Of a stretch of DNA of 64,000 bases, positions 1-64,000 are shown in pieces (position 1 is the first letter of the stretch; each line of letters starts with the position of its first letter). The notes beneath the pieces are model-generated. The model saw only the letters and a list, made by a program, of their open reading frames with translations. It was not told the origin of the DNA and searched no databases. A program made the position numbers and the translations under genes. Origin of the DNA: Pezizomycotina sp. ARF18 (lineage: Eukaryota > Ascomycota); the NCBI GenBank assembly GCA_002224055.1, contig AZLU01000030.1, forward strand, positions 62,001 through 126,000, read 5' to 3'.

Positions 1-3000
1 ATAACTACGTTTCTTAAATATAATAAAGTTTAGAATATTACTAGTAAACCGCTTAAGGCTATAGTAGCTAACGTAAAGCTAAGTACTAAAGATTAAAATA
101 ATAACTTAAAGACGTATATTATTATTAAAGCTTACTATAAGGTAAAGACTTAATATACTTATCTATAATCTACTAATAGTAGCGTAAATAAGGTATAAAA
201 TACCTTAAGTTTAGCGTATATCGCTATTACCGCTATTAGTAAGCCTTATATTAAAAATAATTAAGGTAAATTTAACTTAAGAATAAAGTTAATATTTAAA
301 AATTTATATAGAAGTATCAAGATCTTATTAAATATATAATAAGATATTAGGCTCGATCTTAATAGAGAAGACTAAGGTAGAAATAATAAAGAAAATAGAG
401 CTAGGTATAGGCTTAAAGAATAATATAGCTATAATAAAGGCTATTAATCTTATCTATAGTAACCTTAATAGCGACTAAAAGACGTTTATTATAAACTTTT
501 AGTAGATAATAAATTTAATAGTAAAAAAACTAACCTTTAATATACTTAAAAAGATACTACTTATTAAAGAGGTAAAGCGTAAAATATAATATACTAAAGA
601 CGTTAGCTTTAAGAATAATAAGACGCTATTTAGAAAGAATAGTTAAGGTAAAACCTAAAGAAACGATAAAAAAGGCTTATAAGTTTAAGGGTAAATACTA
701 TTATTATAATAAGGTTAAATATAAGAGAGCTAACTATAGGAAACGTATAAAGAATAAAAAAATAGCGGTAATAATAGGGTATTAGATCTTATAGTATAAA
801 TCTTAATATAAGATACCGGCTCTTAAAGAATAATCTAGTAATTCCTTAACTTAGGCGTATCTTTTTATATAATAATAATAAGAAAAGTATTTTTATCTAT
901 AAACCTCTTTTAAAGCTATAGAATATTATAATTAATAATAAAAAAGTATTATAAGCTATCGATATTAGCTTAATATTTATAAGGCTTAATAGAGAGTATA
1001 GTAATAGTCTTATTAAATTTAAAATACGTTATACGTTCTAAAGATAAAGTATAGCCTATTCTTAATCTCTCGCGTAAATAAAATAGAATATATAATAACG
1101 ATTTAATAAGATAAATATATAATAATTAGATTAGGACTAAGAATTAAAGCTATTATAAAAATAAAATTATAAAAAATTTTAGGTAAGATTATAATATTTA
1201 TAAAGAAAGTTTAGCTTTTACTACTATATAAAAAGTATATAAATAGCTTAAATATATCGGTAAGAATTATATTAAGTAAATAATTAAGTATAAAAATATT
1301 ATTAGTATTACTAAAAATAATAAATTTTAAAGCTATATTAATTATAAGGTCTATAAACTTACTAAATTAAAGGTAATATTAAACCGCGAAAAATCTTAAT
1401 TAGATAAATATAAGCTAATAAAATAATTTTTTTAAATTTTTATTAATAGGCGTATATAAAGAGCCTTAAAGATTATATAGAATTATTACCTTTTTTAAAG
1501 AAAATAGTTAGAAGTTCTAGATCTACTTTATAAAAGATAAAAAGGTAGAAATAATATTCTTATACTTTAATAGTACTCTTAAGATAGCTAAACGTTAATT
1601 AAATCTTAAGCTTATTAAAATATAATATAATAAAAATAAAAATATATCTTAATCGATAGATACTATAATAAAATAAAGATTATAGTCTATATCTTAGTTA
1701 TATATATATCTTAATAAAATAGTATACCTAAGAAGCTTAATTAGATTTTTATCGATAGATTAAAGATAATATTAGCTATATTAAAATTATCGCTATAGCT
1801 ATAGATAGAGGCGGTAAATTATTATAATCTAATTTATAACTATACGTTATTAAGACCGCTTAAAATACTAAAGATAATAAATAAATATATATAAGAAAGA
1901 TAGAAAGATAGAACTTCTAATATTTTAAACTTTAGAATATTAGTAAACTATATTATATATATATCGATAGTAAACTTTAGAAAAAGCTAAATAATATTAT
2001 TAAGAAGATATATTTTATAGGTTTAAAGACTTATAATATTTATTAAGTCTAGAATTCTATTATTTATAAGTATTAATCTATAAAAATATTAGATTCTTAA
2101 ATAAATTAACCTTTAAAATATATAACTTTATAGAAGATAATAAGATTTTTTAAGTATAATAAAACGGCGATAACGTTAGATTATAATTAAAAGTTAATTT
2201 TTAATAGTTAGTTAAATATTTATAAAATAATTATATTAGAGTAGCCTAATTAGCTAGATTATAAGGATAAAATAAAAATCTTAATAACGCTAGTCTATAA
2301 CTAAGATCTAAAAATACTCGCTCTCGTAGAAAAAGTTATATAAATACTATAAGATAGATCTATAACAATTAACTAAAGATAATAAACGTATTTTTAGAAT
2401 CGCTAAAAATAAGATCTAATAGTTAAACTACGAAGATACTTTATAGGCTAAATATATTAATAAAGATCTAATAGCTATATACCTTAGAGAAAAGGCCTAT
2501 AAAAGATTAATAGTAATATATAATAAAACTAAAGCTATTTATCTATAAAGAGGCTATAAGCTCTATAAACTATTAAGAATAACGTATATTAATAGATCGA
2601 GAACTATCTTTAATTAAAGAATAAGACGTATAAAAACTTATAGATTTTTAAGATCTTTTTTTAAAAGATAATATTATTAATAGTAAATAAGTATTTAAGT
2701 ATAAGCGCGATACTATCGATTAGATTATAATATTTAAGTTAAGACTAGTCGCTCGAGGCTTTATATAAAAATAAAAGATTAATTATACGAATATACGTAC
2801 TAGTAGCTAAAATATTAATAGTAAGGCTATTTTTTATACTAGTAGCCTAGCTTAATCTTAAATATAAGTAGATAGATATAATAATAGTCTTTCTTATACC
2901 TAAACTAAAATAAAAAATTATCGTTAGGCCTTTAAAAGAGAGTAAATTAATAGATTAGTTTAATTAATAAAGACTTTATACGATCTTAAATAGTTATCTT

Positions 3001-4345
3001 AAAAATAATATAAAATTTACCTTAGTTTTAAATTACTAAAGTTTAAAGTTTATTAGCTTAATAATAGCTTATTATTAATAAGAATCGTTAGTTAATAATA
3101 ATTATCTACGTCGATAATCTATTAATAGCTAGATCTAATAAATATAAAGTTAAGATATTTAAGTAAGATCTTAGTTTATACTTTAAGATAAAGAATATAA
3201 GGCTAGTAGCCTATTTTTTAATATATAGGTAAAATAGACTAGGTTAGAGATTAACGTTATTTAATACTATATTAATCTATATATATATAATCGCTCTTTA
3301 AGAGATTTAAACTTAAGAATACTTCTAAAATTAATACTTTTATAAAAAGGAGAGGTATTTTTTAAATAAAAGATTAAAATACTATATTAATAATATAGTA
3401 TTAATAAATAATAAAAGTTTAATCTATACTCTATTTACTAGGCTAATCGATACTTTACTATCTTAACATTAAAGTAATACGTTAATAAAATAAATTAAAC
3501 TTATAAAAAAGTAATAAAAGAATATTATAATATTAAAAAAATTCTTTAATTATACGCTTACGTACTATATCTATAAGATAAAAATAAGATACTAAATCTA
3601 TATATTATATAGACGTCGACTAAACTAAATATAAATTTACTTATAAATCTACTACTAGCTATATAATAATATTTAATAAATAGCTATCTTATACTATTTA
3701 AAAATAACGTACTATAACTACTAATAGTACTAAAATAAAATATAAATTATAGAGAAGGCTTTATAAAAAGCTTTCTAAATACTTTAGATACTAAAAGATA
3801 TATAGTAGCCTTTAAGTTTAAGACTCCTAATAGTATCGAGATAATATAAATAATTAAAATATTATTAATATTATAAAGGATCCTAAATACTATAGTAAAA
3901 CTAAGTATATCGATATATAATATTACTTTATAAGAGAACTAGTTTAAAAAGAAACTATCGAGCCTTAATATATAAGATTAAAAAATAATATTATAAATAT
4001 ACTTGTTAAACCGCTTATAAAGATATCTTACGATAGCGCTATAAAGGCTATAGATATAAGAAGATAAGATAAAAATTATTAATATTATTGATAAAGGAAG
4101 ATATTAGCTATTAGGTATACTAAAGAGGTATAATAAATCTATAGGTATCGAGATATACTTATATAGCTAAGAATAAAAAACTTTAGCTAGAGATATTAAG
4201 ATCTTAGCTATAGATGTTAAGGAGATTACGACGATAAGGCTCTATAAGCTATCGAGATAGACTATATATATTATATTAAGATTATAGTATTATTAGTTTA
4301 TTATATATAGTATTATATATTCCTTAGTTAGTCTAGTTAGTCCTA
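1..4345 (+). mobile_element. Ty1/Copia-like LTR retrotransposon fossil, RIP-degraded, 5' end outside window
   Basis: Extremely A+T-rich block with no usable reading frame. CpA and TpG are almost absent while CpG remains, as expected of repeat-induced point mutation in Pezizomycotina. Family assignment rests on the order of traces on the plus strand: a gag-type zinc-knuckle trace near 0.69-0.74 kb, a Copia-type reverse transcriptase start region near 2.74 kb, the RT active-site region near 3.1 kb, and RNase H expected downstream to about 4.0 kb. Protease and integrase would lie between 0.8 and 2.6 kb but were not individually confirmed. The element is broken in very many places and is clearly old or heavily mutated. 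Composition returns to normal between 4.35 and 4.40 kb. Terminal repeats could not be paired because the 5' end is not in the window. Confidence 0.8.
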
Positions 4346-4440
4346 TAGTCAAATCCATAAGTTTAATCCTATTCTATATTATTAAATATATACCATACAT
4401 CTGCGCCAGCAAGTGACCTTGAAGTACCCCTCGCCTCGAA
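4346..4440. other. Transition from RIP-mutated to ordinary DNA
   Basis: CpA dinucleotides reappear from about 4350 and base composition is normal by about 4400. This brackets the right edge of the retroelement or of RIP spreading beyond it. No target-site duplication could be identified. Confidence 0.6.
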
Positions 4441-10576: not shown

Positions 10577-13049
10577 AAAGGTTAGGAAGTCGGGAGCTAC
10601 TTTGAAACGGTGTGAAGTGTTTCTTTCCAGTTGCGAATCGCGTCGGTTTCATACCGTGACTTTCCTGCTGTCAGGAGGTTTATATACGGAACCAGAGTTG
10701 CGATAATCCTCGCGTAAATGTCTCATCGGGAATAAGAGGACCCACCGGTGATAGTGTTTTCGATTCTGTCCTGTCCAATGGTATCGCTACATCGATTTCT
10801 TAGAGTGCTAGAGGCGTGAAATATTGGGTTTTGGAAGCGTAATTCTGGTATAGAGCATGGCGGCGAAGTATGCCACACAGCTTTTCCGGAGCGACACCCT
10901 CTAGAATTGGTTTTGTAAACTGTCAAAATTAGAATATAGCCTCACTTCTGTTCCTAGTACTTAAATTTAAAGAGTGATAGAGAAATTTCGATTAAATATT
11001 ACTTCATTATTAACGTTATTCTTGATACTAACTAGAGCGCAGGAAGAAGAACAAAGAGATCCCATCTATAGGTTGGGAGAAAGTCTATAAACTTTTTTTA
11101 ACTGCTGCAGGTAGAAACCAAAAGCGCTACAACATCAACCGATAACTCCGACAAACAAAGAAAAAACTACAGAGGAGGAATATGACAAGGACGTAATATA
11201 ATATGAGGGTATAAGGTAAAGTTGAAGAAAAAGAAGGGTCTATCTCTTGCCATCAGCTGTTTCGAATGGTGGAACCTTGGTGCCAGTCTTGTTGGTGACG
11301 AGCTAAGTCATAGGAATATGGTTGTCGGCCGTGCGTTGCAATTCCGATCCTTGTCCTGGCTCCCTCCGAGAAAACCGCCGAAAGTGGAAATCGGGCCCAC
11401 ATATAACGATAGAAATTTTGATCGGGATTTCCATCAGTTCCGATGGTAGGTATGCGACCGGTACGCTCCGGTCAGCTGGTACATTAGGTATGCCCTGTCG
11501 ATCATCCTCTTCCTTTCTACAGCGATGTTCCTCGGTCGTTCAGGGTTGCGGAAGTGTTTCGGGTCGCGCAGGTTCGGCGTTGACTTGTTGTTACCGCGAA
11601 CAAGACCGGGGTTATATGCGTACGACCGGTTTGCGGACTCGGGTTCGGGCGGAGGTGGGAATCGGTGTTCTGAGACCATTTTTTTCGAACGATAAGAGCC
11701 GATGAGTCCGTTGTTGGAATATTAGTCGCTGGGATGAACGAGGATGAGGTTGCTAATAGGCGAATTTTCGACCAGCTTTGGAGAGAAGCTTGCGGTATCG
11801 GTATGAAGCGAGTGGTTGTGAGGATCGGATGAAAAGATTAGATTTATATTCCAACGACGATGGGCTGTGCTATGTCATAAAAAGATGTCGCAATGATTAC
11901 AGGTAACTGGTTTCTGATTCCTTTGTATTGTTGGAGTAGCAAGATATCCCATGATAATGATTCTCTAACATCCCAAGCTTCCAGCCGAAAATAATATATA
12001 TAAAAAATTTCGTCCGAAAAGCAAAGGGAACATGACGGAATTATAAAGACCTGGGATATAGCATTACGCAATAAAAAGGCAATGACAACAGACATGCAGC
12101 ACCTTGTCGGCAGTTTCCAAGTTTGTCACAAGCTGAGCCGCCGGTCTTTTTCTTCTTCCTTATATGAAACCACACAGCCCGTATCAATGACCCTGAAACT
12201 GACAAGGCCCGAGTTAACCCATTCTTATTCATGATAAAAAAAGACAGAAAGGGAGGAAATAAAAAGCCTCCACGTTGCATTGTGAGCACAACAAACAGAG
12301 ATAACAATATTTACTTATTTGCTACCGTAGCGATCGGCGGTAAATGTTACCGGATACCGTGCCACAGGCGAAATAGCAAATGTAGATAGGGCTGTCTCTT
12401 CTCGTTGGTTTCGATGCCAGCTAATCGCAAATCGTCCTCTCTCGCTATGTTCTTTTTTGCTAAAATTACCTCTCGATTTGCGAAGGGAGCGCCGCTTGCT
12501 TGGTGTTTGGTTTCAGTTGTTACCGCTATTCGGGTGTTTCCCCCGAAATTTCCGAACGGCTCGGTGATCTGTTCGATTGAAAAGTTTAAACATATTTCTT
12601 GAAATGGGTCGACCCGGAGGTTTCTGTTACACAATGCGATGAGATGGTGAGATAAATTTCTGGAAAGACTAATCGTACGGAAAGGCTAATCGTAGGGTAT
12701 ACCGCATGGATGGCGCGAGAATTGAAAGACATTCGTTAGGTAGGCAGCAATACAGTTTTGTTGTCTCTAGATTTTATAATTTGCCTGCAGATAGACGTTC
12801 GACAGATTGTATTATTGGAATTAAAAGGTGATTGAGAACTTGTTTGATTATTGTGAATGCAAACGATGTTAATCGGGAGTATATATATACAAAGAGGACG
12901 ATAACATCCTTTCAGTGTGGAAGATAAAACGTAAAAACACCTAATAATGATGCATTATCAAAAGGACCCTATAGAATGTAAGTGCAAAAAAAAAAAAAAA
13001 AAAAAAAAGGCCGAAAAAATCGACGTGTAGTCTTTTCAATATCCTTTTG
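10577..13049. other. Long intergenic stretch with one weak open frame
   Basis: No recognised gene. A minus-strand open frame at 11434-11679 (81 codons, MVSEHRFPPPPEPESANRSY at its start) has a protein-like composition rich in Pro, Arg and Asn, but has no recognised family and may be chance. Open frames of similar length on the opposite strand overlap it. An A homopolymer lies near 12987-13008. Confidence 0.35.
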
Positions 13050-15098
13050 TCACTTCTTCTCATCCGCATTGACGTTAACAATACGGTGTGGCTCCTCTTC
13101 GTTGGCCCTGTTATCCGATACGTCCTTACCGAGGTAAGTACTCGCCTGCAGCGCGTTGAGCGCATCCTCTTGGGCATCCAAGTGCCTGAAGCACAGCCAG
13201 AACGCGATACCAGCGACAAATGCCAAAATCGCGGCGACACCGTAGTTCCAGATCAGCAGAGGATCGGCGACGAGGTCGACCATACCGTATCCAATGGCGG
13301 TGCTGAACGCGTTCATGAGCAGGAACATGGACATGACGATACTCCTCATGTTCTTCGGCGCCTTGCTGAAGGCGTATTCCAGACCGGTGATACTGGCGAA
13401 GATCTCGCTGATGCCGATGAGCAGGTAAGGTCCGACCTGCCACCACACGCTGATGTCGGCGATCTTCTCCCTGCAGTCCTTCGTCGAGGTCGGGTAGTAA
13501 CCGCACGGTGATGGGTGTAGATCTTCCACTGGAGGATAGCAGCCCAGAGCATTGCGAGGACGCCATGAAGAAACCGCTGGTGATCTTCTTGAGAGGGGTG
13601 AAAACGATGCCTTTCTTGCGGAGGGACGGGTAGATAAGGATGTCGAAGATGGGGATGAAGATGATCAAAGTAAGAGGGTTGATGTTGTTCAAGAACTCGT
13701 TGGGGAGACCGTGGGTGTTCATCAAAGCAGCTTGGGCAGTCAAGTTGTTGTCGATTTGACCATAAGCGAGCCCTATATAGCGTTGTTAGTTTGAGTTATA
13801 ACAATAATATCAACAGTCCAGAAAGATATGCCAGCTTACAGTAGATAGGGTAGAAGCAGAAGACCTTGCACGCCGACAGGGCACGCTTTAGCTCATCAAC
13901 CCAGGCGTCATCGAAGACCATCCAGTATGGCTTCTGCTCATCGGGGACCTGGCTGGGCTTGCTCCTCTCCCAGAAAGTCCCGTCGTTGATGTTCTTCACC
14001 AGAGTGACGGGGTTGATCGACCACCTTCCCTTCATCGCAAATCCAACAAACTTGAAGAATGTAGCCATAACGCTACCGGTCGGCGGCGTCCTCTTATACC
14101 TTGTCCTACCCCAACCATAATCGCGGGGCAGAACGAGAACATGAATGTCGGCAGCAAGAACGCCAGCCAGAATCCCACCCATTTTTCCGCGAAGACCATG
14201 GTAATCTGTCCGATCAGGGAACCGATGTTGATCATCATGTAAAAGTACATGTAAATTCGCGAGACGGTAAGGTTCGGATCCATGATGACCCTTTCGCCGC
14301 TATCAAGGTGATGACCTGCTTCTTCGTGACGGTGTACTGTTCGGCAATCAGAGGGGAGATGTTCGACTTGAAACCACCGGTACCCAGGCCCATAATCGTT
14401 ATAGCGGCGCAGAAAACGCCGAAGGCGGTTTTGGCGTGTACGATCACGGAGGGGGCGGCGGACACGACGAGGAGGATGTGGCCGACCATTGCGCAGGCAA
14501 TAGAGGCCATGATGGTTTTGTAACGACCCCTACAATTCTCTTTAGTATAAAAGTTTTTAGGTGATACCACTTGATTAAGGCTTACCAGTAGGTATCGGCG
14601 AGGTAAGCGCCCAAATTGGTGTCACGTATGCCCAGAATTTATTGTACTGGGAAATAGCGTAGGCAGTCTTCTGGCCTTGGCCCAGAGCGCCGGATTTACC
14701 CTTCTTGCCGGCACCCGTCGTAGAACCGGGAGGTAAATCCAGAGAACGAAGTTGGAGACTGTAAAATAATAAGTACTGTTAGCCCGAATACAATTAAAAT
14801 ATAATTTACTGTGCATTAAGTAGCTATAGATTACTTACATAGCGTGGTCGTTCCGTACCACGAGAAACGTTCGCACAGCTCGACGAAGGCGACCGTGTAA
14901 GCATTGAAAGGCACACTTCCCGCGACTCGGCGGAGGGTTTGGAGCTCTTCCTCGGTCGGTTCGTGGCTGACAATCGAGCTCGAAGGCGTACGGTCGGAAT
15001 CGTACCTCGGCGGATCATCTTCTCCTCCGACGGAGCGCTGGGGCGTGAGCCTCGGCGATGGCGGCGGCGCCATCGTCAACAGATACCGTCGTTGCCAT
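13050..15098 (-). CDS. PTR2-type proton-coupled oligopeptide transporter (POT family)
   Basis: Plasma-membrane di/tripeptide:H+ symporter of the POT/PTR2 family. From the N-terminus: a cytosolic Pro/Asp-rich tail, the family signature VELCERFSWYGTT near 14860, a lumenal or cytosolic segment KTAYAISQYNKFWAYVTPIW, TM segments with GLGTGGFKSNISPL and IYMYFYMMINIGSLIGQ (PTR2 signature 2), then PTGSVMATFFKF. The later half includes NPLTLIIFIPIFDILIYP and WWQVGPYLLIGISEIFASIT. The C-tail ends with charged residues at 13050. Three introns are visible, near 14760-14848, 14530-14585 and 13773-13839. Expected length is about 600 residues, matching the family. At least five single-base frame breaks occur, two of them within 60 bases near 13505 and 13555, both fixed by one G or C in a run. 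The start may be 15098 (MATTVSVDDG, one indel away) or 15079. Confidence 0.9.
13773..13839 (-). other. Intron 3 of the peptide transporter
   Basis: On the minus strand the donor GTAAGC and acceptor TATAG bound 67 bases. Joining them restores the reading FYPIYWLAYGQIDNN, which matches the family across the junction. Confidence 0.8.
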
Positions 15099-15182
15099 AA
15101 TTTTCTGAAGCTTATTTCAATCTGTTCCCCTTTTCTTTTTCTTCTTTTACCTTAGAGGTAACAACCTTCTAGAAGGTGTCAA

Positions 15183-15196
15183 TCTATATATAAGGA
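15183..15196 (-). promoter_or_regulatory. Putative TATA element upstream of the peptide transporter
   Basis: A CTATATATAAGG-type sequence lies about 90 bases upstream of the minus-strand start at 15098. The core is nearly palindromic, so the strand is assigned only from gene position. Confidence 0.3.
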
Positions 15197-15199
15197 GGG

Positions 15200-16764
15200 G
15201 AAAAAAACGGTCGTACTGACTTCGGTCGGACGTTGCAAGCTCAACGGGGCACCAAAAACGGACATTTTCGCGGAGGGTGCGTTCGTTATATATTAGAGCA
15301 GAATAATTCCCAGACACGTTCGAGGCTCACCTCAGACAAATTAAACATTGAGAAAAAAAAAGAAAGGAATAAAGAATAATAATACAGCAAAAAAGTAAAT
15401 AACAACGATCGGTTCAGGAGAGTCATCTGGTCGGTGAGATTGGATAGAAACGCTATATCGAAAGTCTGTACCACTGAAAAGGGGAGGTGTTCCAGAACTG
15501 CTCAACTCGAAAGTTCTTTTACCGCCCCTGTTTACGGTATAGTGCGTGAACATCCACCCCGTCCAATGGCGAATTCTGTATCACTGCCGAGAAATTCTCG
15601 AAGGGCTAACTGGTCGCCGAGGGACAATCAAATTATTGGGGAAAAGCAAAACCGAGCAGACCTTTGTGTTCCGCCCTTCCAAGAGAAATGACGGTGCATA
15701 GTGGGGAACTTCCTTGGTCAGCGAATCGGTGGCGGTTCCCAGGCAGCAAGAATTGCCCCAAAAGATGCCCTGCAAAGAAACGTTTGGTTCGTCGTGCTAC
15801 CGCTAGATTCGGAAGTTTGGATCGAGCAGAAAAAGAGGAGATGGAGTGAACGTTTGTTTTAACGTGCTCTAGTACTTAGGGGGTTGCATTGGAAGCTCTG
15901 GAGGCGGATCCACCGATTATCACAATACCAGGTGTTTTTTCAACTGAGCTGAGGCAGCGAACATGAGAGATTCTTCATATCACGATCGAGCAGAATAATT
16001 CTCAGTTACCTATTTATTCTAGACTCTACTTCCATCACGCTATCTAAGCTTCGTGATAATGTCCACCCGAATAACTTCTCTTATCTTCGCATTCTTCTGG
16101 GAGTACAAAAAGGGGCTGGTGAAAAATCCCGACATCTGAAGCAGAGATATCGAGATGGCCACAGAAAACCCCCGCAAATGCGCTTTCATCCCTTCAACCA
16201 CGATAAACCACGAGAAAAGTAAGAAAATTACCCTCAAGGTGAAGAATCTTATTTTTCTTATTAGGTTAAAGCTCATTTGCTCCTCCAGAGTCCTAGGATT
16301 AGGGTAGTAATCAGGTCGGAACATGGTTCTGCCAATAGTTTGGTGATATCCGAAAGTCTGGGCATCTCGACCCTTCGGCTAAGGGACCTGCTGGTTTCAG
16401 AAGCTTCTGCTATTGGACCTTCCGTTTTGTTGTTGCAATTTCCCAGAAACATCACTAGCGTGCATCTTCTATTGCGCCTCTTCCGCTAATCTTGGCGATA
16501 CAATAATAGTGAAAGCGGTCGATGAGCAGAAAATTGTCGGTCATGAATTTATAGTAAAACAAAAAAAGTTTTATGTTACTTTGTGAACTCTTCCATAAAT
16601 AATATTTATTTGCCTAAGATTCTTGCTCAAAATGACGCGCGGCGAAGGCGCTTAGTGTCTTACCTGCGGATGGGGACCACATCGTGATCACTAGTAATTC
16701 GTCGTAGGACAAAGACACGGCAGAGAATTCTGAGCTCATACGCGTAATTATCAATTTACACGCT
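15200..16764. other. Intergenic with weak open frames
   Basis: No recognised gene. A minus-strand frame at 16040-16324 (94 codons) contains one hydrophobic stretch (VIFLLFSWFIVVEG) that could be a membrane segment, but there is no other support. The remainder shows only overlapping short frames on both strands. Confidence 0.35.
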
Positions 16765-17085
16765 TTATTTGTCTTCGCTCCAGGCGTCGATAGTTCGAAA
16801 GATATCTGTATCCGGCAGATAATATAAGACGATATAAAAGCTATAAGCTCCGGTCGGCATGATCACTGGAACTAATCCTCCGCGCTTCTCAATGGCATTG
16901 CCGACTGCGGAATTCCCGCTGTTATCTGCTCTCAACGCCTTCTCTCGTCGTTCTTTTCTTGTTCTTTGCCTCAAACTACTTGTAGCGTGATGCCAATTCA
17001 AAATACCGTCTTCGCGGTTCGAAACCTGAAGGACTTCATCCTTTCTTCGCCAAAAGTCTTGTTTATTGCCTAATCCACGAATACC
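16765..17085 (-). CDS. Unrecognised C-terminal coding fragment
   Basis: A minus-strand frame stays open for about 107 codons upstream of the stop at 16765 without an obvious start. It begins near IRGLGNKQDFWRRKDEVLQV and ends YYLPDTDIFRTIDAWSEDK. The middle is Arg/Lys-rich and then hydrophobic. It looks like a 3' exon or a frame-broken gene body rather than chance, but no family was recognised. The upstream part toward 17.5 kb could not be followed. Confidence 0.35.
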   Translation of the reverse strand, partial: GIRGLGNKQDFWRRKDEVLQVSNREDGILNWHHATSSLRQRTRKERREKALRADNSGNSAVGNAIEKRGGLVPVIMPTGAYSFYIVLYYLPDTDIFRTIDAWSEDK

Positions 17086-18895
17086 AAGAAAAAGAACAAA
17101 GTGATCGTCAAGTTCTAGAAGGTCTCAGCATCCCTTACAGTGGCTTTCCACGGAGCAGAACACACCAAAACTTTAATTATTCCGCAAAATGAAAGAAACG
17201 AAATCCGACCGAGTAAGAAATCCAGCAGATTTTTGTCAAATCGAGAAGGTGTAGCGTTCCCTACGAACAGTTAACGTGTTAGCTCTGTAACCTTGCTCCG
17301 TTGCAAGGGGGATATGGATGAAGGTTGTTATGCATGCCTCCCGTCCCTACTCATCAACTCCTGCCCCGTTCTTTTTGTACTTATTCCGTACCAATTGCCC
17401 TTTCGTGAGAGCAGGAAGGTAGAAACGACGGTTTACCGCAAAGAAAAGCACGTGGCCAGTAAGAAATCGCATTGAGCCAATCAAATGAAGACGGTGTCAT
17501 ACTCGCAAAACACCGTTACCTTTCAACAATGCAAACGAAGCGGAATTAAAGCGGGAAAAATACATAGTAATGTAGGTACAAATAACCTTATTCGCCCTTT
17601 GGGCGGATTTTCATATAGTGGAGACTGAGGATGAAGGCCAGCCGTTGAAAGTGTGGAGGAACTTTGATGGATCGATCGTGATCCCTTTTTTTTTATTAAA
17701 AAGAAAAACCCGAAATTTCGAAAAAAGAGGTTTTTTGTGGATACCTCCCCACTGCACGTAAATATGAAGAGATTTATACAAGAAATAGTTAAAATTTCGA
17801 CGAATTTCCATAAAAAATACCGCTGCTGCTCTTTCGCATTTGATATTCGCAGTTAACTTTGATAGCTTCTTCGCATCACTCCCTAAAGTCTTGGACAACG
17901 GGGGGTAAAAGAGTCCTCATTTGATCTCTATGGCCGTGGCGGCACCACCAGCCCTAATTGCCCCACGGAATACTGTTCAAGCCATGCGCTTTCCCCATCA
18001 GCTGACGGCTAACAATCCCGTTCAATCGCACATGTAACTTGGAAAGCGCTCGAAAACAGTCCACGATAGTAACCATTTTTCACTTTCAGCCTTCGTCTTT
18101 TTCCAGCGCCATGGAATCCCTTGCTTTGTGAAAAGTGCTGATCGCAAGTTTCTGGACCTAGCTCGGTGAAAGTCCTTGCGAGTTCCGTTCCAAATAGACA
18201 AGACAGGCTTCTTCTTTTGCCTTCTATTGCCGTCTTAGAGCGACAAGGTTGGCGGTTCTTGGTCTTTTTTTGATCTTCTTGGGGGTAACGCCGGGGTAAC
18301 CCTCAGGCGCAAAAAGCGTGGCCTAAAGGTTGGTTTCACAAGTCGAATAGTATTATCTGACCACATTTAGATAACTTTACGGAGTATATTTTGCTACAAT
18401 CCGTTTGTTTACAGCTAACACAGTTTTCCTGCAAAGAATGCGATGGAAAGTTCTTGCTCTGCCGGAACTAAGTGTATCAAGAGAAATATATACAAGAATA
18501 ATCGTATACTCTAGATTAGTGAATATAACGGTATAGGCGCTGTTTGCTTGGCCAGCACTGCTAATATTTTCTTGCGTTTATATTCTCACTAAGGCCTTTC
18601 TCTAGCGAGCCGCAATTCTGTTTCGTGCTGTCCGCTCGCGGCTCTTATAATTAGTACTATAGCTAGGAATCTCATAATTATCTCAAGTTCTACCTGAGGA
18701 ATCTATATAACACTCTTTTCTTTACCACCAATATAATAATTTCGGTAAATAGTTTTGTCGTCTCGCGATACCAGGAATCTTCATACTTACCAGATCCTTG
18801 AGTTCTTACTCTGTCTCCTCAAATATAAGCGCATAGAAGAGGACAGACTATTTAAACCATTATTTATAACTTAATACTACGAACTGTTCCTACCG
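17086..18895. other. Gene-poor stretch, nothing recognised
   Basis: Only short frames on both strands, including a 95-codon minus-strand frame at 17611-17898 of low-complexity character. No RNA gene or repeat structure was recognised. Confidence 0.4.
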
Positions 18896-53106: not shown

Positions 53107-53721
53107 TTTGGACAATTGACGATTGGGGGTTGTTTGGTGGAAGTTGGGGTGAATTGGGAGGAATTCGTTGGAGAATTGAGGTTTTAAATTTCCACGCGTT
53201 GACGTGTGTAATTTTTTTTTTTTTTTTTTATGCTGGGAGCTTAACCCCTGTGCCGGGAAGTTTCGGCCCCGTTCAACCGACAGCTAAAGATTTTTTTGGG
53301 GGAATTTGAGCGTGCAACTACAGCACGCACTAGGAATACGCACCAACCATCACGGTATCAAGCAATAAGTACCTATACTGATGTTGTGAATATATTTGAA
53401 AGCTATATTCAATACTATCCAGATATAGATAGGTAGTTTCAGTATCTTAAGCAAAAAAGTAAAACTGTATTTCTCATCGAGAGAAAAATTTTCAGGTGAC
53501 GTGAATGAAAAAAAAAACCCCTTATTCGCCGCATCGCGTCGTGGAGCTGAAGCTCGGATTCGCAGTGAAATATACGCTAACACTTCCAAATCTAACGCTT
53601 TGGTTCACTACTTGCATAGACACAATTGGATCACTAATATCTACTAAGTACTCAAACTCCTGAAATCATTCGGCGCTATTATCCTAAAATCCTCTAAGAT
53701 ACCCTTTTATAAAACCTCCTC
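53107..53721. other. Intergenic, no gene seen
   Basis: Contains a T run near 53211-53229 and a 79-codon minus-strand frame of low credibility at 53350-53589. Confidence 0.45.
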
Positions 53722-54119
53722 TCAATCGCACTTGCGCACGCCACGTTCTCCGCCTATCGACGTTCTTCGTAAGCTAACAAAAACGACCGGTTTCTTCGTA
53801 TAATTATCCCTCAAAATACCGATATCGGCCCATTTAACACCCAAGCGCGTTGCGTAGATTTCCAAGTCCTTCAATATGCTTTCGAATATACCGTCGCCGG
53901 ATCCTCGTCAGGTAAGGGTAAGTAATCTGGCGCTCGGGGTTCGAGGGAAGATTGGTTGGGTCCAGCTTTATTCGGAAATCTAGTTCGTCTAGGTCGTCGA
54001 TGGTGAAGTTGTATACGTGACACCAAGGCGCGATCGTAGCGCGGGGCGTTACGTGCCGGGATCGCAATATGCGCTCGAGGCGCTGGAACCGCTCGGAGTC
54101 TTCGGCGGAGTGCGGTCTT
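53722..54119 (-). CDS. Unrecognised coding fragment
   Basis: The minus strand reads EDSERFQRLERILRSRHVTP, then CHVYNFTIDDLDELDFRIKL and QITYPYLTRIRRRYIRKH. After one frame change it continues EIYATRLGVKWADIGILRDN and KKPVVFVSLRRTSIGGERG, stop at 53722. A CAG acceptor lies just upstream of the first residue (about 54120), suggesting an internal or last exon. No family was recognised, but the coding look is good. Confidence 0.45.
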
Positions 54120-56496
54120 ACTGCGAGGTCATCCCGTCATCTTTCTCAAGGAAATGATCGCCTCGAGCGGAGATGGAGTAAGAAAAGGAATAAATGGATA
54201 ATACGGACTATTACCGAACTTTTAATATATATTGAGCCTCATTGCGGATACGGCGACATCTGATTGGATATGGGCGATTGCGGTTCTGACTCCCACGATA
54301 TCCAAATTTCGGCCAGAACTCTTTTTTTTTTTTCTTTTTTTTTTTTCTTTTTTCCAAAAAGAAATTTTCCGCTATATTTTTTCTCTCGCTAAAATTGAAA
54401 ATAAATTAGCAAACTTGAAATAAATAGCAAATAATAAACAAAACGCACAACAAATAACAAATACTAGTATACTGTTCAACTTGGCACTCATCGAGCCACT
54501 CATCGGTTATAGTAGTATAATCATTACGCATGCATCCATTAAAAGTTACGTTATTCGGCGGTGATACATTATAGCGTTTTGATTGCCGATACCTGATATT
54601 AGAAGCGTTAACACTTGCTTTCGCCCGCGAAAGCCCTCAATACGGCCACGGCCCTTTCAAAGCGGAACGCGATCTATCAATCTAATATCTTTACAAACTA
54701 CCCAATACGAGGGCGCATAATCTACATGCCTTATACGTCCTGAATACGAACGATACAGAACGTGACATTTCGATCTCCGACGTTTCAAAACCGTATCCCA
54801 TCAAATCGCCTACTATATGAGAAAAGTCATGAACATCTTTCGTAGTGATTGATATACCAGTACCATCCACACGTGTATGCCGATATTATCGTAGAAAGCC
54901 GCTTGGAACCAAATCAATTATAATACCTAAGTGTAAACGAAGACTAAAAAAAAAAAAAAAAACGGGCAGCTGATATCTTCAAGTTATCAAGAACGTCTCC
55001 AATATCTTTCCATACACCGTGCAATATCGAGGATGGTACATAAGCAATGGAGCAACTAGCGAGCTGTCTCGAGACTACGAAGATGGACAACGGAAGACGT
55101 AGAGAAAAGAATAAGGCTATATTAAGAGGAGCTCAACTCCGAGTCGGGCCTGGTTGAAGACTGTAGTTCACGTATTGGCTTAATTCCATTGAAGACTAGC
55201 TTGGCTCGATAAGGCCAAATGGTGGGACTCGAAGAATACGTCGCTTTTCCGGTTAATCCCGACAGGTGCTAGAATGTCGGAAATATCGCGCCTCAAGTGA
55301 CGCTCTATCTTTCGCAAGTATCATAAAGAGTAGAAGTATATCGTCGAACAGTATATAAAAAGAGAAAGATGGCAAACGAATGTTTCACCAACCTCCGATG
55401 TCCGCCTCACTAAAGTCCGCCGATGGGCAGTCGCGTCAACGAGCGAAATCGTAAAGAAGCTAGAATTAATTCGGTATTTTAATCAGAAGGGCGTTTGTTC
55501 TCGAAAGAAAATACACGTAACACACGTGTCATCCTCAAACGAAACGGAAGATAAAATAGAGATCCGGGTGAACAAGGGCGAATCATTTTTGAGAGCCGAA
55601 CGTTCGGCATGCAGTCCAAATATTCGTAACTCGAGTTTCATCGTTTCTTCATAACGCGAATGACAAAAGCATGAAGAACTCGACTCCACGCCCCGAAGAA
55701 CGCCTAAAAATCGCTTGCAGAACATGGCGTCATATCACTCTATGTACCGTGAAAAGACTCGAGTTAGTATACTTGATAGAAGATTCAGAGAATGCTGCAT
55801 GAGTATCGAGCACGATAGACTACAACGATACACAGTCTTATCTGATTGTATTAAATTTATGATGATTAATAAACGGCAAGAACGGGCGGAGATGAATCAG
55901 TCCTCTCGGTAGATTGCGAGCAAGCGGGGAAGAATAAGCGAGAGATGTGGAACGAAGCATGAGCTCACTCGCGAAAATCGCTAGCATAGCCGTCGTCCCA
56001 GATGTAGCTTGAAAATATTATTTACGGGTTCCACACGCGATATTGATACCACCATTCTTTATGAGGCTTGAATGCAGCCTAAATCGCCCACACGGCCCGG
56101 CGATAGAAGCTTGAGGTTATTTACCCAAATTTAACCCTTCACTTCCTTATGCTGAGCCACGATTACACTCCCAGTAACTTAATGTACGGATGATCATGAC
56201 GCAAGATCGGTGCAGAGAAGCCTTTATAAACACTTACTTCGAAGAAAGCCTAGGAGTAGTCGTCGGATTAATGCCTATCGGATGAAAAGTTTCGAAGCGG
56301 GACATACGTAGTCGTCAAAAGCCAGAGTATTGCTCGAATCACGTCAGCCTCGTATAGCCTGTCCAAGTTGTGGCGATGATTTATATGAAGATTGTGATTT
56401 TGTTTGATACGCTGGAAACTACATACGCGAGGATTTAGCCTTTTATTAGTTAAGTAGGGACGTTACTCTTCGTAGGACCTCAAGAGAGAGAGCGGG

Positions 56497-56525
56497 AAAA
56501 AAAAAAAAAAGGGGGGGGGGGGGGG
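56497..56525. repeat. A14 followed directly by G15
   Basis: Two adjacent long homopolymers. A G15 run is rare in genomic DNA and could be an artefact of the read consensus. Confidence 0.9.
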
Positions 56526-57363
56526 ATTGTAATTCGTTCCATACCACTAAGCTCCTTAAGTAGCAGTATTTAAATCAACTGTAAAAGATCTTACAAAAAG
56601 AACGGTAGTAAGATTGGCACACAAAGCAACCGACTCCACGAACAACATGCTACAACTAACTTGGCCCCCCCACCTTTCGAAAATAACTACTACGAACACT
56701 AAGTACAAATCTCACGCCTCGATCTAGTAGTACTATCATAGCACGTATACGGCGAATGGCTCGCGATTTATATGCCCTATATACCACAAAATAGCCCGGC
56801 GTTCTGCCCAAACGATACTTCAGTGAAATGGAGGAGTGCACAAACTAAAAGTTTGACAATCGTTCTAATCTTAGGCCTTGGGCGCGATCATTGCTTTCTT
56901 TAAAACGAAAACATGATTAATAAATCCGCGATATCGATAGAAACTATAAGGAGCTCTCCGCATAAAGAAAAGCGGATCATCTACAAAGCCTCGCACGTCC
57001 TACGCACTACGATACTACAAGAGACGGAAATCACCTAACTTTGTGCAAACCGATCGCGCGATATATGAGGGAAGGAAGAAGTGCGCCGTGGTGATATATT
57101 ACCCAGAAACTCTTAAATCCGAGACCAAAGTCGTCTTACCATAGACGTACTAGGTGGTGCTTGAATTACTCTATAAATAGCGAGGAAAGTTTCGGAAGCA
57201 TGGCCAAGTCAGATTATATTGTAAATATATTACCAAAATAGTCTCACGGAAGAACTCCTCATTCATAAAACATTTCGATGCTGAATGGTAATGGAATGAA
57301 GCACAGCAAAGAATCAGTCTATATTATTAGAAATTTAACGACGAAGTGGCTCATTAAGGGACA

Positions 57364-57888
57364 CGAAATCATACATGTTGAATTTCACTTGGCCTTGACT
57401 TCGTTTGTGTAGAAACCGAAGGGACGGGCATATATCGCTTTTTCTCAATTAATTCTGAATAAATGCTTAAAATGCGGAAGATATCCGTCTCAAGGGCACG
57501 TAGCTGGCGCCCCCTTTCCGGGAATATGTATTACATTGTATTCAAGATATAAATGTAACCTTTTCTATATCGTAAAAGTAGTAAATTTTCTTTTTCGTCT
57601 AGGCATTCTAAACAGAGAAAGACGAAATCATACATGTTGAATTTCACTTGGGCCTTGACTTCGTTTTGTAGAAACCGAAGGGACGGGCATATATCGCTTT
57701 TTCTCAATTAATTCTGAATAAATGCTTAAAATGTCGGAAGATATCCGTCTCAAGGGCACGTAGCTGGCGCCCCCCTTTCCGGGAATATTGTATTACATTG
57801 TATTCAAGATATAAATGGTAACCTTTTCCTATATCGTAAAAGTAGTAAATTTTCTTTTTCGTCTAGGCACCTTCTAAACAGAGAAAGA
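57364..57888. repeat. Tandem duplication whose copies differ only by indels
   Basis: Copy 1 is 57364-57622 (259 bases) and copy 2 is 57623-57888 (266 bases). By eye the two align throughout with no clear base substitution. They differ at eight sites by one or two bases inserted or lost, for example C5 against C6 near 57510 and 57774. That pattern is typical of long-read consensus error rather than mutation. Confidence 0.85.
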
Positions 57889-60800
57889 CGAAAAATCAGA
57901 GTTCCTTACGACTTTCCATATTTACCTAACCAAAATACGACCGACGAGAATCTCATCAACGAGCGAAACAGTATAACGACTAGAAAATTAATTCGGCGTC
58001 TCGGTTCTGGAATCGGGTTTGTTTCCAGACAAAGCATATGCCGTGTATTTATTCATTCAAGGGGGAATACCATACTTCTCTTGATCAAGAGTTGGAGGTT
58101 TTCGATAGTCGACCATTTGGCATGTAGGCTAAAGTCCTGGCATAATTGGGAATTTCCTAACGAAGACGAAACATCGGATAGTTTTTCAATACAAGAACGG
58201 AAAAATGGCTCGTACATCAATATTTTGATACTGATGATGGACCATAATGCTTTTTATGGTTTCGACAAGCCAGAGATACCCTGTCTACAAGCACACTTAT
58301 CGGGCAATAATCGTCAAGAAAAGCTATATGGGAATTGTCCATAATAGAGAACCGTCAATACACGCTCGCGTATCATCGACTCTTTTTCCGCATTTTCGCC
58401 GACGGATACGTAGTAATATGAGCTGAGGTCAAATGCTTGAGCTTGCTCTCTCGGACTGCAAATGTAACTACTCCAGCTTCTCGAACGAAACAAGCTCTGT
58501 GAATTAGATATCTTTAGATACTACAGCGAGTATTTTAATCGGAAAAGCGCAATCGCATAAAGTTTGTTTCACTTCGAGCATTCTCCATACAGAAAGCCAT
58601 TTCTTGAGATCTTCAAATGACTTGACTCTATTCAAACCAATTCAAAAAAAACACATAATGTCGTATACGCCGTTACTTTCGCAAATGTAGTTTCTTCTGC
58701 GTCCGCCCACGACATTCTCCGAAGATAGAAGATGCCAGGAGTTCTTTAATGATATTAGAATCCGCTACTCACTCCATAGATTTTCAGAAACTGTAGTAAA
58801 TGAAATATCAAAGACCCCTTCGATACTAGTGATATTGGTCAAAGATAGAACCCTCCCATAAGCCTTGAAATCAGATGGGGAGGTAGACAAGTGCGATAGA
58901 ATCACGAAATCCGGTCATGAAGAGCTCTACCCCGAACCTCGAGAAGTCGACGCGATATGATAAGTATGAGTTTCCAAGAAGAAAAATTTGGCTCCGAAGT
59001 CAAACGATATTATTGTAGAAGTGTGTGGGTTGCTTAGTGTCCCTCATCGATATCACCATTGCATAGGTATCTGGAAAATATCGAAACACCCATCCCAGGC
59101 GTCGGAAAGCCGAAAAAACGTAGCTGGCAATTATCCTCCGCGAATGCTGCATAGGTGATTGTGGCCAACATGATTAAGTCGTATAAGTAGGTTAGCAAAC
59201 AGGGAAAACTAGGCACTGTTCCAAAATCCAATATCAACCACACGGAAAAGCGGCCCCTTGTGAAATTTGACGGACGGTGATTTTGGTGCATTTGCCTATA
59301 ACCGTGTAATCTTCCAAGAGGCATACCGTGAATACTAATGTGTGTCTCACTCATCAGACGCACGGTAGACCGTCGGAGAAGGTCATAACTCCTCATTAAA
59401 GAGACGCCAGTAGTATTCGATAGCGTATCCATCCAACACTCAGGCCAAAAAGCACACTTCCATTTCACTCTTTCCTCATTCACGAACGCCCAGACTAGGA
59501 AAAACAGATGAAACTCAAGGCAAAGGCTCAGAAAATAGCGCAATGTTGTACGTAGAGAACGTATAACGATCTAGTGTTCACGCGGGCGCATACTATGAGT
59601 TCTTGCCTTTTCCAGAGATCAGACGCCGGAACGTGACGTAGGGGATTACTTGGATAACCTGAACGAATAAAGTTTGTATTTCCCTAATCAACTTGGCTGC
59701 GGAGACTAGGATAGAAAAATGGGATCGGAGAAGTAGAGACAACGATGGAGGCGGTAGAATGTTTCCCACGCGCACGTCGTGATCAATCTTGGAGGTATAC
59801 TTGAGAAGTAGAGGAGAATCCCACGCGCGCTCCCTCGGCTGGTTGCAAGATACAATTCAACATGGCGCTTGAGGAATATTCACTCATACTAGTGGATATC
59901 AGTCATAAAGGTCCAAGCTTCCATATATAGCGAAAAGAAGTTTAGAGGTAAAATCGGATGTGAATACACCCACGAGCGAGGATAGCATTTTAAATAATTT
60001 TTAACAGAATAATACTATCGAGTTCCCCCAAATATAAGTAAGGCTCCTCCGCTGCAACTCGTATCAAGCTCACAGTCTTAATACGTATATGGAACTTTAT
60101 TATCGCGCCGTCAATAGTAAACAGTACCTTTACAACCTAACTCAACACGGATGTCGCCCTCCTAGAAGGTACTAGTGCATATATATCTCAGGACCCATGA
60201 ACCGCCAGCTCATGTGTTCCGGCAAACTAGTAATTGTGGAGGGGCCCTTCGGCTAATTTTTGCCCTGGAAAAAATAATATTCTCAATTTTCCCCCCGCTT
60301 AAAAATTGAAAAATAATTACGAACGAAAGGGCAAAATTATAATAAGCAAGAAATAACGACAACGCACAATTGAAAGGCTACAGTTAACTAAATGCGCGCT
60401 TTATCCAAATACCAGAATGAACGGCTCTACCATAGATCATTCTCTCGGTATAGTACTCAGCGCTCTACGTTTTCGTCAATGACACACGAAGCACGGCCTG
60501 CATTTTGTTCGGAAACTGCCAGTTATATAAGTTTATCTAAGAGTTAAGCCGCTGCCAAACCTCGAACGCTACCACTCCTTCTCATAATTAAGGGAGGTTA
60601 GTAAAAATAATGATATCTACAGAAACTACAAGCAAAGCGTAAAACAATAGGGCGGGAACTGCCAGCCTCCTGCCTATCGGATGAGCATCTTCGCATACAG
60701 AAGGTGACATTTCCCAGCCTCCGAATGTACCCGACGTTAAACGGTATGCGGGCCTGCCACGTGATATGACAAAGTGGCGTCGAGGACGTTCACCCATCGT

Positions 60801-61608
60801 ATCCAGTCTCTCTATCTCTACATCTCATAACTCGTATGAAGACGCCTAGACAGTTCTCAAACGCACCGCACAAGTTCTCTGGAAAAGCTGTAGCGCGTAT
60901 GATCGATAATAATACCGGAGAAGAAGTATTGCGAAACTCCCCGTAAGGGTATGAATCCCAAACGATAGTGGACTAAGTAGAACAAGGAATGAAGCTATAT
61001 TCAAAGGATCCCAATTGCCGAGTCGGCCTCTGCATCATGAGAGCAATTATTCATGCGTATTGAATTCCACTTGGGGCTAGCTTCGTTCCGATACAGTTTT
61101 CGGTATATATCGCTTTCCCCAACTAATCGTGTTTCGTTCATAGAGACCGTAATCAGATCTTACGTCTCATAAGAACGCAGGCAGCACTCATTTTCCCAAA
61201 CAGTGCATAAATTTCTTGCGTTTGCTTGATGGGCCAATAAATCGGTAACACTGTAAATAAGGACTACTACTCACTCTGATATGTCGGTGATCAAAATATT
61301 CACATGCCTTTTTTGAACACCGCTTACCCCGCTCATAAGCTAGAGAAGAGTTTGATGTATCACCAGAATTCGTTACTCACATATGTATTCGTTCATTAAA
61401 CTGAAAGGCCAACAAGGGCTCAAATACTCCTCGATGGATAGATGGGAGGAATTTTCGATAGACGACCGTCCAACGTACATGTGGAGGTTATTTCCTTTTA
61501 GATCTTTTCAGTACACGCAATAACCATAGCCGAGAAGTACGACAGACTTTGACCCAAGAACAAGTTATACGGGAGAAGGTGTTATAGCGATCTTTAATTT
61601 CTGAAAAA

Positions 61609-61842
61609 ATGAGCGAAGATCTGGCCTGCGCTCTGGCACTTGTTGGACAGCAGACACGAGAGAAATATACGGGGAGCGTCTATAACATACCCCCTTCAAT
61701 GCACGCTCGTATCATATCAACTCTCCCTTCAATGCTGAGAATAATGGATAGAGGTGGGAAGGAACGGGAAGTTGATATCTCTTCTCTGATAGATTTCGAG
61801 GCAAGCGAAGAGAATATACGCAAGAAATATAAGATTCGATGA
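61609..61842 (+). CDS. Open piece of the repeated unknown family, copy 3
   Basis: A 77-codon frame reads MSEDLACALALVGQQTREKY, then PPSMHARIISTLPSMLRIMD and ends ENIRKKYKIR. The middle aligns with PSIHARVSSTLFPHFRRRI in copy 2 (about 58352-58400), and the DNA around 61735-61830 aligns with 55855-55950 in copy 1. Retention of related residues in two copies argues that this frame was once translated. Function unknown; it may be a pseudogene. Confidence 0.35.
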   Translation: MSEDLACALALVGQQTREKYTGSVYNIPPSMHARIISTLPSMLRIMDRGGKEREVDISSLIDFEASEENIRKKYKIR

Positions 61843-62391
61843 GCAAACATGAAACTCGTTATCAAAATGCCTGCCGAGGTAGCTTAAAAACGTCTGGGAG
61901 CCGTACGTGCGATATCGATGCCACTATTTCCCACGAATCGTTGGTACAATTTCAATCAGGACAAAGCCCGAATGATAGTCACCTATGATGGGTTCTAAAA
62001 GTCCTCTCGAAAGAGAAATCGGGGATAGTAATCAAGTAGTGTTTATCGGATGAGGCTGCCACCTGCTCATACTTGATGTCGAATCCTAGAAAAAAATTCA
62101 TGGCACCGTACACTACAAGAGCCTAGTATAGTTCATCAAGAGTGCTATCGCCGTTCCATATGAAGCTCGTGGACTTTATTCGTCGCGTCCGGAGCTGGAT
62201 AAGCGCTCTGTTGTTGTGGAAGGATACTACTACCGAACTAACTTACGAAGAACAGTTTTCCTCTTTCTTTATAGGACACGAGCTATAGGCATCGTAGAAC
62301 AGCGAAAACCCGCCGGCGCATATTGTGCAAGACTCAACTACGTGGGCACGGAGCCATTCGCCATACCGGAAAAAGTAGAAGAATGAAGATC

Positions 62392-62598
62392 TGAACAATG
62401 CAGACTAGAGTACAAGCCTGTAGTCGAGAAGGCCGCAATAGCTTGGATTAAATTAAATAAGAGCACTGAGGTCCCGGAACATACGGATCCAAAAAATACG
62501 ATAGAATTTAATGAAAAGCCTCAAAAAATTGTGCAAACATGCCACTCAAAGAAGAGCTTCATAACGCTCTTAAGCTCGGAGGATGCCATAGTATGATG
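62392..62598 (+). CDS. Open piece of the repeated unknown family, after copy 3
   Basis: About 69 codons without a start: QCRLEYKPVVEKAAIAWIKL, then STEVPEHTDPKNTIEFNEKP and KKSFITLLSSEDAIV. Part of its DNA (near 62509-62545) resembles 59500-59545 after copy 2. Protein-like composition, unrecognised. Confidence 0.3.
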
Positions 62599-63005
62599 CA
62601 CGCAGCCCTGTGTGACATTTCTAAATGGCAGACGTCGAAGAGGGATAGAGGGGATTGCGCAGAATAAATAGAACCAGTGAGGCAGTTTCGTCGTTGACAA
62701 TTCTTTCGTAGTTTTGTCGCAGTGTAGATCGTTAATAGAAGAAATACAGGCAACGACGAATGCGGAATAATGTTTTCTCGTACATAGCGCACTAATCGAC
62801 AAAGATACAGCTGCAGAACCAAAGTGACCGTGTGCGAGCTCCAAATGAAAGCCACTCTCACAATCACTGGTAGTAGTAGAATCAAAGTGAGACTTTCATC
62901 AAACTTGATACTAATCTTATCGTCTTCCGGCACTAATGGCGTAAACCTAGGCGATAGAAGTCTTAGTTTATTTCCGAAAATTAAGATCTCGTATTACAAG
63001 AAACC

Positions 63006-63233
63006 GTGATAGCCATCAATCGACATTTATCGGATAGGGAAAGGGAGTCATTTCATATTTTATTTCTTAAACGATCCGCGATTGACGCGATAAGCTCTTA
63101 TAAACCTTCGAAATCGAAATCTTTCGATATCAAGCTCGTGACCTTGCTTCGTCACATCGGGACTTGGAGACGCACTGCGACCTCCATAAGCATACCTCTA
63201 CAAATCGACCTTACGGAGAAATTGCCCTCGTAG
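63006..63233 (+). CDS. Open piece of the repeated unknown family, copy 4
   Basis: A 75-codon frame contains FDIKLVTLLRHIGTWRRTAT and ends QIDLTEKLPS. The DNA aligns with 62034-62270 in copy 3, where the related reading is KLVDFIRRVRSW. It is probably an internal part of the unknown protein. No domain was recognised. Confidence 0.35.
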   Translation: MIAINRHLSDRERESFHILFLKRSAIDAISSYKPSKSKSFDIKLVTLLRHIGTWRRTATSISIPLQIDLTEKLPS

Positions 63234-64000
63234 ATAGATATGCGTCGACCTTGGGGCTCGTAGAAACCCAAAACTGCGAGTCAAACGATACATCCGGACA
63301 CTAAATAATTGCTAGAGCGTCCTTCATGGATATGGCAAAAATAAAGGACCTAGAGTTATGCAGCTCCCGTTCGAACGAACATTCAAGCAGTATACTCTTC
63401 CTCAGGCGAGCACTACGATAGCTCCCGCTCCGTAGGAACGTTGAACCTCCAGGCTATTGGTAATTCAGATTACTCGACGAGGGCGACTTTTGGGAATAAG
63501 TCTCATAGCTGGAGCTTTCGATAGCACATTATTCCAGTTCCAAAGCCCCAGCTTTACATTTTGCCAGAAGTTGGACTGTGACTGGTTAAGAAAGACTATT
63601 CTGACTTTTACCATGATGTTGTCATAAAGGCTATCTGAGAAATCCAATGCGCGCTCGTGAATTACCACAATATAAATCCTTGAACTTGGACAATAACGGT
63701 CGATATTTCTAAAAGACTAGAAGCTGATTGACGCGACCGTGATAATCATTTGGCTACTTGAGTGCAGGAGCGTCCATAAAGTCTTCGAAAGAACATTAGG
63801 GAGATCAATAAAATCTCAGTTATCACCAAAGAAGAGGATACCGCCATAGTTTCATCCACGCGCTACCCAAATGCAGGTACAAAGCAGCCTGAACAGTCTA
63901 ATAACCCGCCATACTTAACTCTGAGCCGTTCCAGTAATCCAAATGCCGTCGTTCTGTGACGACAGCTCACCGAAAAATGCGTAACAACAAACTGCAAAGA

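Follow-up and report, generated by a model that had tools for sequence, protein, structure and literature searches.

Indel-only differences between two tandem copies point to uncorrected consensus errors in the assembly of Pezizomycotina sp. ARF18

Contig 30 of the Pezizomycotina sp. ARF18 assembly (46,361,250 bases in 408 contigs) contains, at about 119.4 kb of its 286,541 bases, two directly abutting copies of one sequence, which differ at eight sites by insertions or deletions and nowhere by a substitution. These eight differences are most likely uncorrected consensus errors and not biology, whether the duplication is real or false. The window, i.e. the whole stretch of 64,000 bases that was analysed, corresponds to positions 62001-126000 of contig 30 and is devoid of N; positions below are those of the window unless another contig or locus is named. 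The pair and its differing sites were as follows.

57364..57622: copy 1, 259 bases, shorter than copy 2 at seven of the eight differing sites
57623..57888: copy 2, 266 bases, one base short relative to copy 1 at one of the eight sites
~57650, 57734, 57770, 57788, 57817, 57828 and 57870-57871 (+ strand, alignment coordinates): the seven sites with extra bases in copy 2
~57407 (alignment coordinates): the eighth differing site, with the extra base in copy 1

Local alignment of the two copies gave 258 identical columns, no mismatch and eight gap sites amounting to 9 bases, and the pair was also recovered by a blastn self-comparison (0 mismatches, 8 gap openings). An earlier note on this DNA had described two halves with eight indel sites and no substitution, and this description proved to be exact. 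Five of the eight sites are changes in run length (GG/GGG, C5/C6, T/TT, G/GG and C/CC), and the other three are not. With the settings used, this was the only local pair of 40 bases or more that the self-comparison found in the 64-kb window, and a search of the whole assembly with the unit matched one place, the pair itself, with no further copy. The pair was absent from the Tandem Repeats Finder listing at the default score. No frame of at least 120 amino acids starting with ATG, GTG or TTG overlapped the pair, and the duplicated unit is probably noncoding.

Consensus error is expected to produce indels with few or no substitutions, as was found here. The probability of observing no substitution among eight changes would be about 1.5e-5 with substitutions making up three quarters of real changes, 0.004 with half and 0.10 with a quarter. 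Real divergence by indels alone, resulting from an old duplication of which both copies underwent slippage, would agree with the changes in single-base run length at five of the sites. We consider it improbable, in view of the complete lack of substitutions over the 258 columns, of the three sites that are not run-length changes, and of the presence of single-base indels in 5S rRNA, actin and RNA polymerase genes as well, where they are expected to be harmful.

The errors in these intolerant genes, which are borne by other contigs, also support the proposal of the earlier note that indels without substitutions are the mark of an uncorrected single-molecule consensus. The assembly contained 15 matches to 5S rRNA. 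The 5S error rate was determined with eleven near-identical copies belonging to two types (L022 to L032, with L022 and L026 as references); three diverged copies (L033 to L035) and a truncated one (L036), which also hold indels and substitutions, were left out. The eleven copies, representing about 1,320 bases, showed 12 deletions, 1 insertion and 9 substitutions, two of which form a paired change in L029. L025, L028 and L032 had 2, 3 and 2 indels, respectively, and no substitution. Some of the 5S copies could be pseudogenes. The 5S genes (L022 to L035) are dispersed and of two or more types, between which paired changes in sequence are seen, and contig 36 carries five of the 15 matches.

In the actin gene, on contig 382, successive conserved stretches were found in different frames, with overlapping HMM matches. 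When compared with solved actins (375-residue numbering), residues 102-164, 167-259, 267-305, 307-336 and 337-375 were in frames 2, 1, 0, 0 and 2, respectively. The best-scoring solved relative for three of the five stretches tested was chain 8a5d_V, presumably from a Chaetomium complex, with which residues 102-164 were identical at 63 of 63 positions. The DNA was one base short at 164/167, at ~259/267 and at ~336/337, as 5 bases cover residues 165-166, 20 bases cover residues 260-266, and codons 336 and 337 share a base; the breaks near 259 and 336 are placed to within about a codon, the last residue of each stretch being a mismatch. Residues 305 and 307 are separated by 102 bases, which we take as one codon plus a putative intron. 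The HMM matches suggest that the frame changes once more, near profile position 95.

Similar breaks were observed in RNA polymerase second-subunit genes on three contigs. The frame switched between two matches sharing one base on contig 15, pieces of the gene were in different frames and contained stops on contig 236, and one match on contig 82 contained two in-frame TGA. A break of this kind also occurs locally, within the window itself.

12998..15000 (- strand): POT/PTR2 peptide transporter gene, with Pfam PF00854 matches in different reading frames

In this gene, 91 bases separate the matches to profile positions 218-290 and 316-382, 16 more than 25 profile positions require; this excess is not a multiple of three and leaves no room for an intron. 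The stop codon of the gene is closely followed by a long T run, which reads as an A run on the + strand. The window also encodes FMN_bind_2 and Tle1-like hydrolase domains. With these and the PTR2 domain, the actin match to 8a5d_V and the RIP-like block described below, the assembly has the appearance of a filamentous ascomycete genome.

Since single-base errors, mostly deletions, are present in conserved genes elsewhere, a background process explains the eight differences of the pair without a biological cause. The length differences would arise in a noisy long-read assembly that mostly drops bases and was not polished by accurate reads, long-read origin and lack of polishing being what we infer from the type of errors. 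In the organism, both copies would probably be identical or nearly so.

The earlier estimate of three indels per 100 bases is correct as a pairwise figure; per copy, 8 events in 525 bases correspond to about 1.5 per 100, and to ascribe the errors to this place was too narrow, as indel errors were found on several contigs, with an uneven density. At the 5S rate (1.0 per 100), 5.2 events would be expected over the 525 bases of the pair; 8 were observed (P = 0.15 for at least 8). The actin rate is about 0.4 per 100 (3 in 822 coding bases), lower than the per-copy rate of the pair, which indicates that the error rate must vary from place to place, with the pair near the top of the range. The missing bases are split seven to one, copy 1 being the short one, which is lopsided for independent errors (two-sided binomial ~0.07); given the predominance of deletions in 5S rRNA (12 of 13) and in actin (3 of 3), seven of the eight errors of the pair would fall in copy 1.

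Another conceivable explanation is that the locus is decaying under repeat-induced point mutation (RIP) or some other mutation process producing short deletions. The genome does contain a stretch that looks like the product of RIP, at one end of the window.

1..4380: AT-rich stretch, GC 0.197, TpA/ApT 1.42, (CpA+TpG)/(ApC+GpT) 0.03, adjoining normal DNA

To judge from its composition, this stretch appears to be an almost fully RIP-saturated, RIP-like block. RIP causes C-to-T changes, not indels. Both indices of the pair (TpA/ApT 0.90, other index 1.00) are those of DNA that has not been mutated. Substitutions are absent from it, so that the lack of transitions already contradicts this explanation, which we regard as very improbable. 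The first 4,200 bases of the block contain 5 CpA/TpG as against 280 CTA/TAG sites, a figure that sets a limit of about 1.8% on a single kind of deletion and is of no use as a gauge of error. Two other features of the window concern its composition. A run of 14 A followed by 15 G occupies positions 56497-56525 and includes the sole G run longer than 7 from position 4401 onward. Throughout positions 54001-64000, A exceeds T on the + strand (AT skew of about 0.1), and only two frames of at least 120 amino acids are listed there.

The lengths of the reading frames are consistent with such errors. The longest stop-to-stop frame in 59.6 kb of the window had 243 codons. Nineteen stretches of about 10 kb were also sampled, and in the 17 that were retained (L004, which was incompletely read, and L013, of only 348 bases, were dropped) the longest frame had 161-370 codons. 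Compared with Markov resamples, frames of at least 100 codons were about 2- to 8-fold more frequent. Their excess, together with the short maxima, indicates that coding sequence is present but chopped, although short frames prove nothing by themselves, because introns also shorten frames.

Cleaner stretches were also found. The rDNA copies of contig 189, which were located via 5.8S, showed 3 indel columns and no substitution column over 7,787 compared bases, and contig 257 contains an uninterrupted frame of 879 amino acids. As such DNA may be multi-copy, its cleaner consensus would fit an error limited by coverage. The rDNA repeats (L045 to L048) are spaced by about 10,867 bases; in the 5.8S series, one expected position was unreported, and the last copy, in an incompletely read locus, was short and below the family cut-off. 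The 879-residue frame of contig 257 (56,537 bases) encodes a diverged RPB2-like RNA polymerase subunit in a region with a GC content of 0.36 (L044, positions 15001-18000 of the contig). The best, but weak, matches of this protein were to subunits of the archaeal type and of the Pol III type, and a second weak match was found at 53690-53908 of the same contig. Contig 257 may represent a plasmid-like element or one derived from a virus.

One may also imagine that the deletions are real and are restored in nuclear mRNAs and in 5S rRNA by insertion-type RNA editing, the two copies being then the record of a deletion-prone genome. We regard this as extremely improbable, because the apparently noncoding copies, the near-identical rDNA and the 879-residue frame favour sequencing error limited by coverage.

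We consider it more likely than not that the duplication is a real and recent tandem duplication of about 265 bases. Short repeats are found at its ends and at its junction.

57363..57371 (+ strand): short repeat ACGAAATCA at the left end of the duplication
57622..57630 (+ strand): short repeat ACGAAATCA at the junction between the copies
57888..57898 (+ strand): short repeat ACGAAAAATCA at the right end, with 6 exact bases (ACGAAA), or 9-11 if the A3/A5 difference is an indel error

Short tandem duplications flanked by microhomology carry a short repeat on either side and another where the copies meet. In the assembly sequence, the pair resembles them in this respect. The start of the unit and the right flank share 6 exact bases. 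When 178,105 breakpoint pairs were taken at random from the same 10 kb, 377 shared at least 6 bases (P = 0.002); as the end repeat is a single event, the probability is only suggestive. Two short direct repeats (ACGAAA..TCA) may have given rise to the duplication, either through slippage or through microhomology-mediated repair.

It is, however, quite possible that the assembler or a consensus step wrote one locus twice, each time with its own indel errors, and that the genome holds a single copy. A single locus for which two noisy consensuses were made independently would indeed yield copies that differ by indels only. The excerpts considered of PMC9516828 and PMC8081667 describe such 'homotype' false duplications and link them with sequencing errors and, for one case, with a bug in the assembler. 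Like the pair, these are near-identical copies of one locus with sequencing error as the sole difference. According to the same excerpts, they often lie at contig boundaries, are about as long as a read and have a gap between the copies after scaffolding (PMC8081667; see also PMC9516828). These features are typical, not obligatory; unlike the typical cases in what PMC8081667 describes there, the pair has a unit of 260 bases, is gapless and lies well within its contig, with no N in the window. In addition, random joins seldom share 6 end bases.

We also applied the same blastn self-scan to the sampled loci L003 to L036 (226,900 bases, part of them counted twice because the 5S loci overlap, and with L004 incompletely read) and found no other local indel-only duplicate of about 260 bases in them, which also argues against a false duplication. 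The scan yielded two other things only. One was pairs of neighbouring 5S genes, with both mismatches and gaps. The other was a short-period tandem array on contig 40 (L009:8238-8400), in which two of seven self-match rows had gaps and no mismatch; this indel-rich array can be counted in favour of a false duplication. Taking the end repeat together with the unlikeness of the pair to known homotype false duplications, we lean towards a true recent duplication and infer that it exists in the cell.

The type of error is already known. As described in the part of PMC12007338 (the Kastor paper) considered here, the errors dealt with in that work were, like those in this assembly, short insertions or deletions, often in homopolymers, which cause frameshifts in genes. 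One draft mentioned there had less than 0.05% errors, unlike the present assembly, which had about 0.4-1.5 events per 100 bases where this was measured.

The finding is therefore a data warning and not a discovery. A short tandem duplicate serves as an internal replicate, from which a hint of the rate of consensus error can be had even when there are no reads. As actin illustrates, several false frameshifts may be present in a 1-kb gene, which makes gene calls, pseudogene counts and claims of protein loss from this assembly unreliable, and conclusions at the protein level require that it be polished first.
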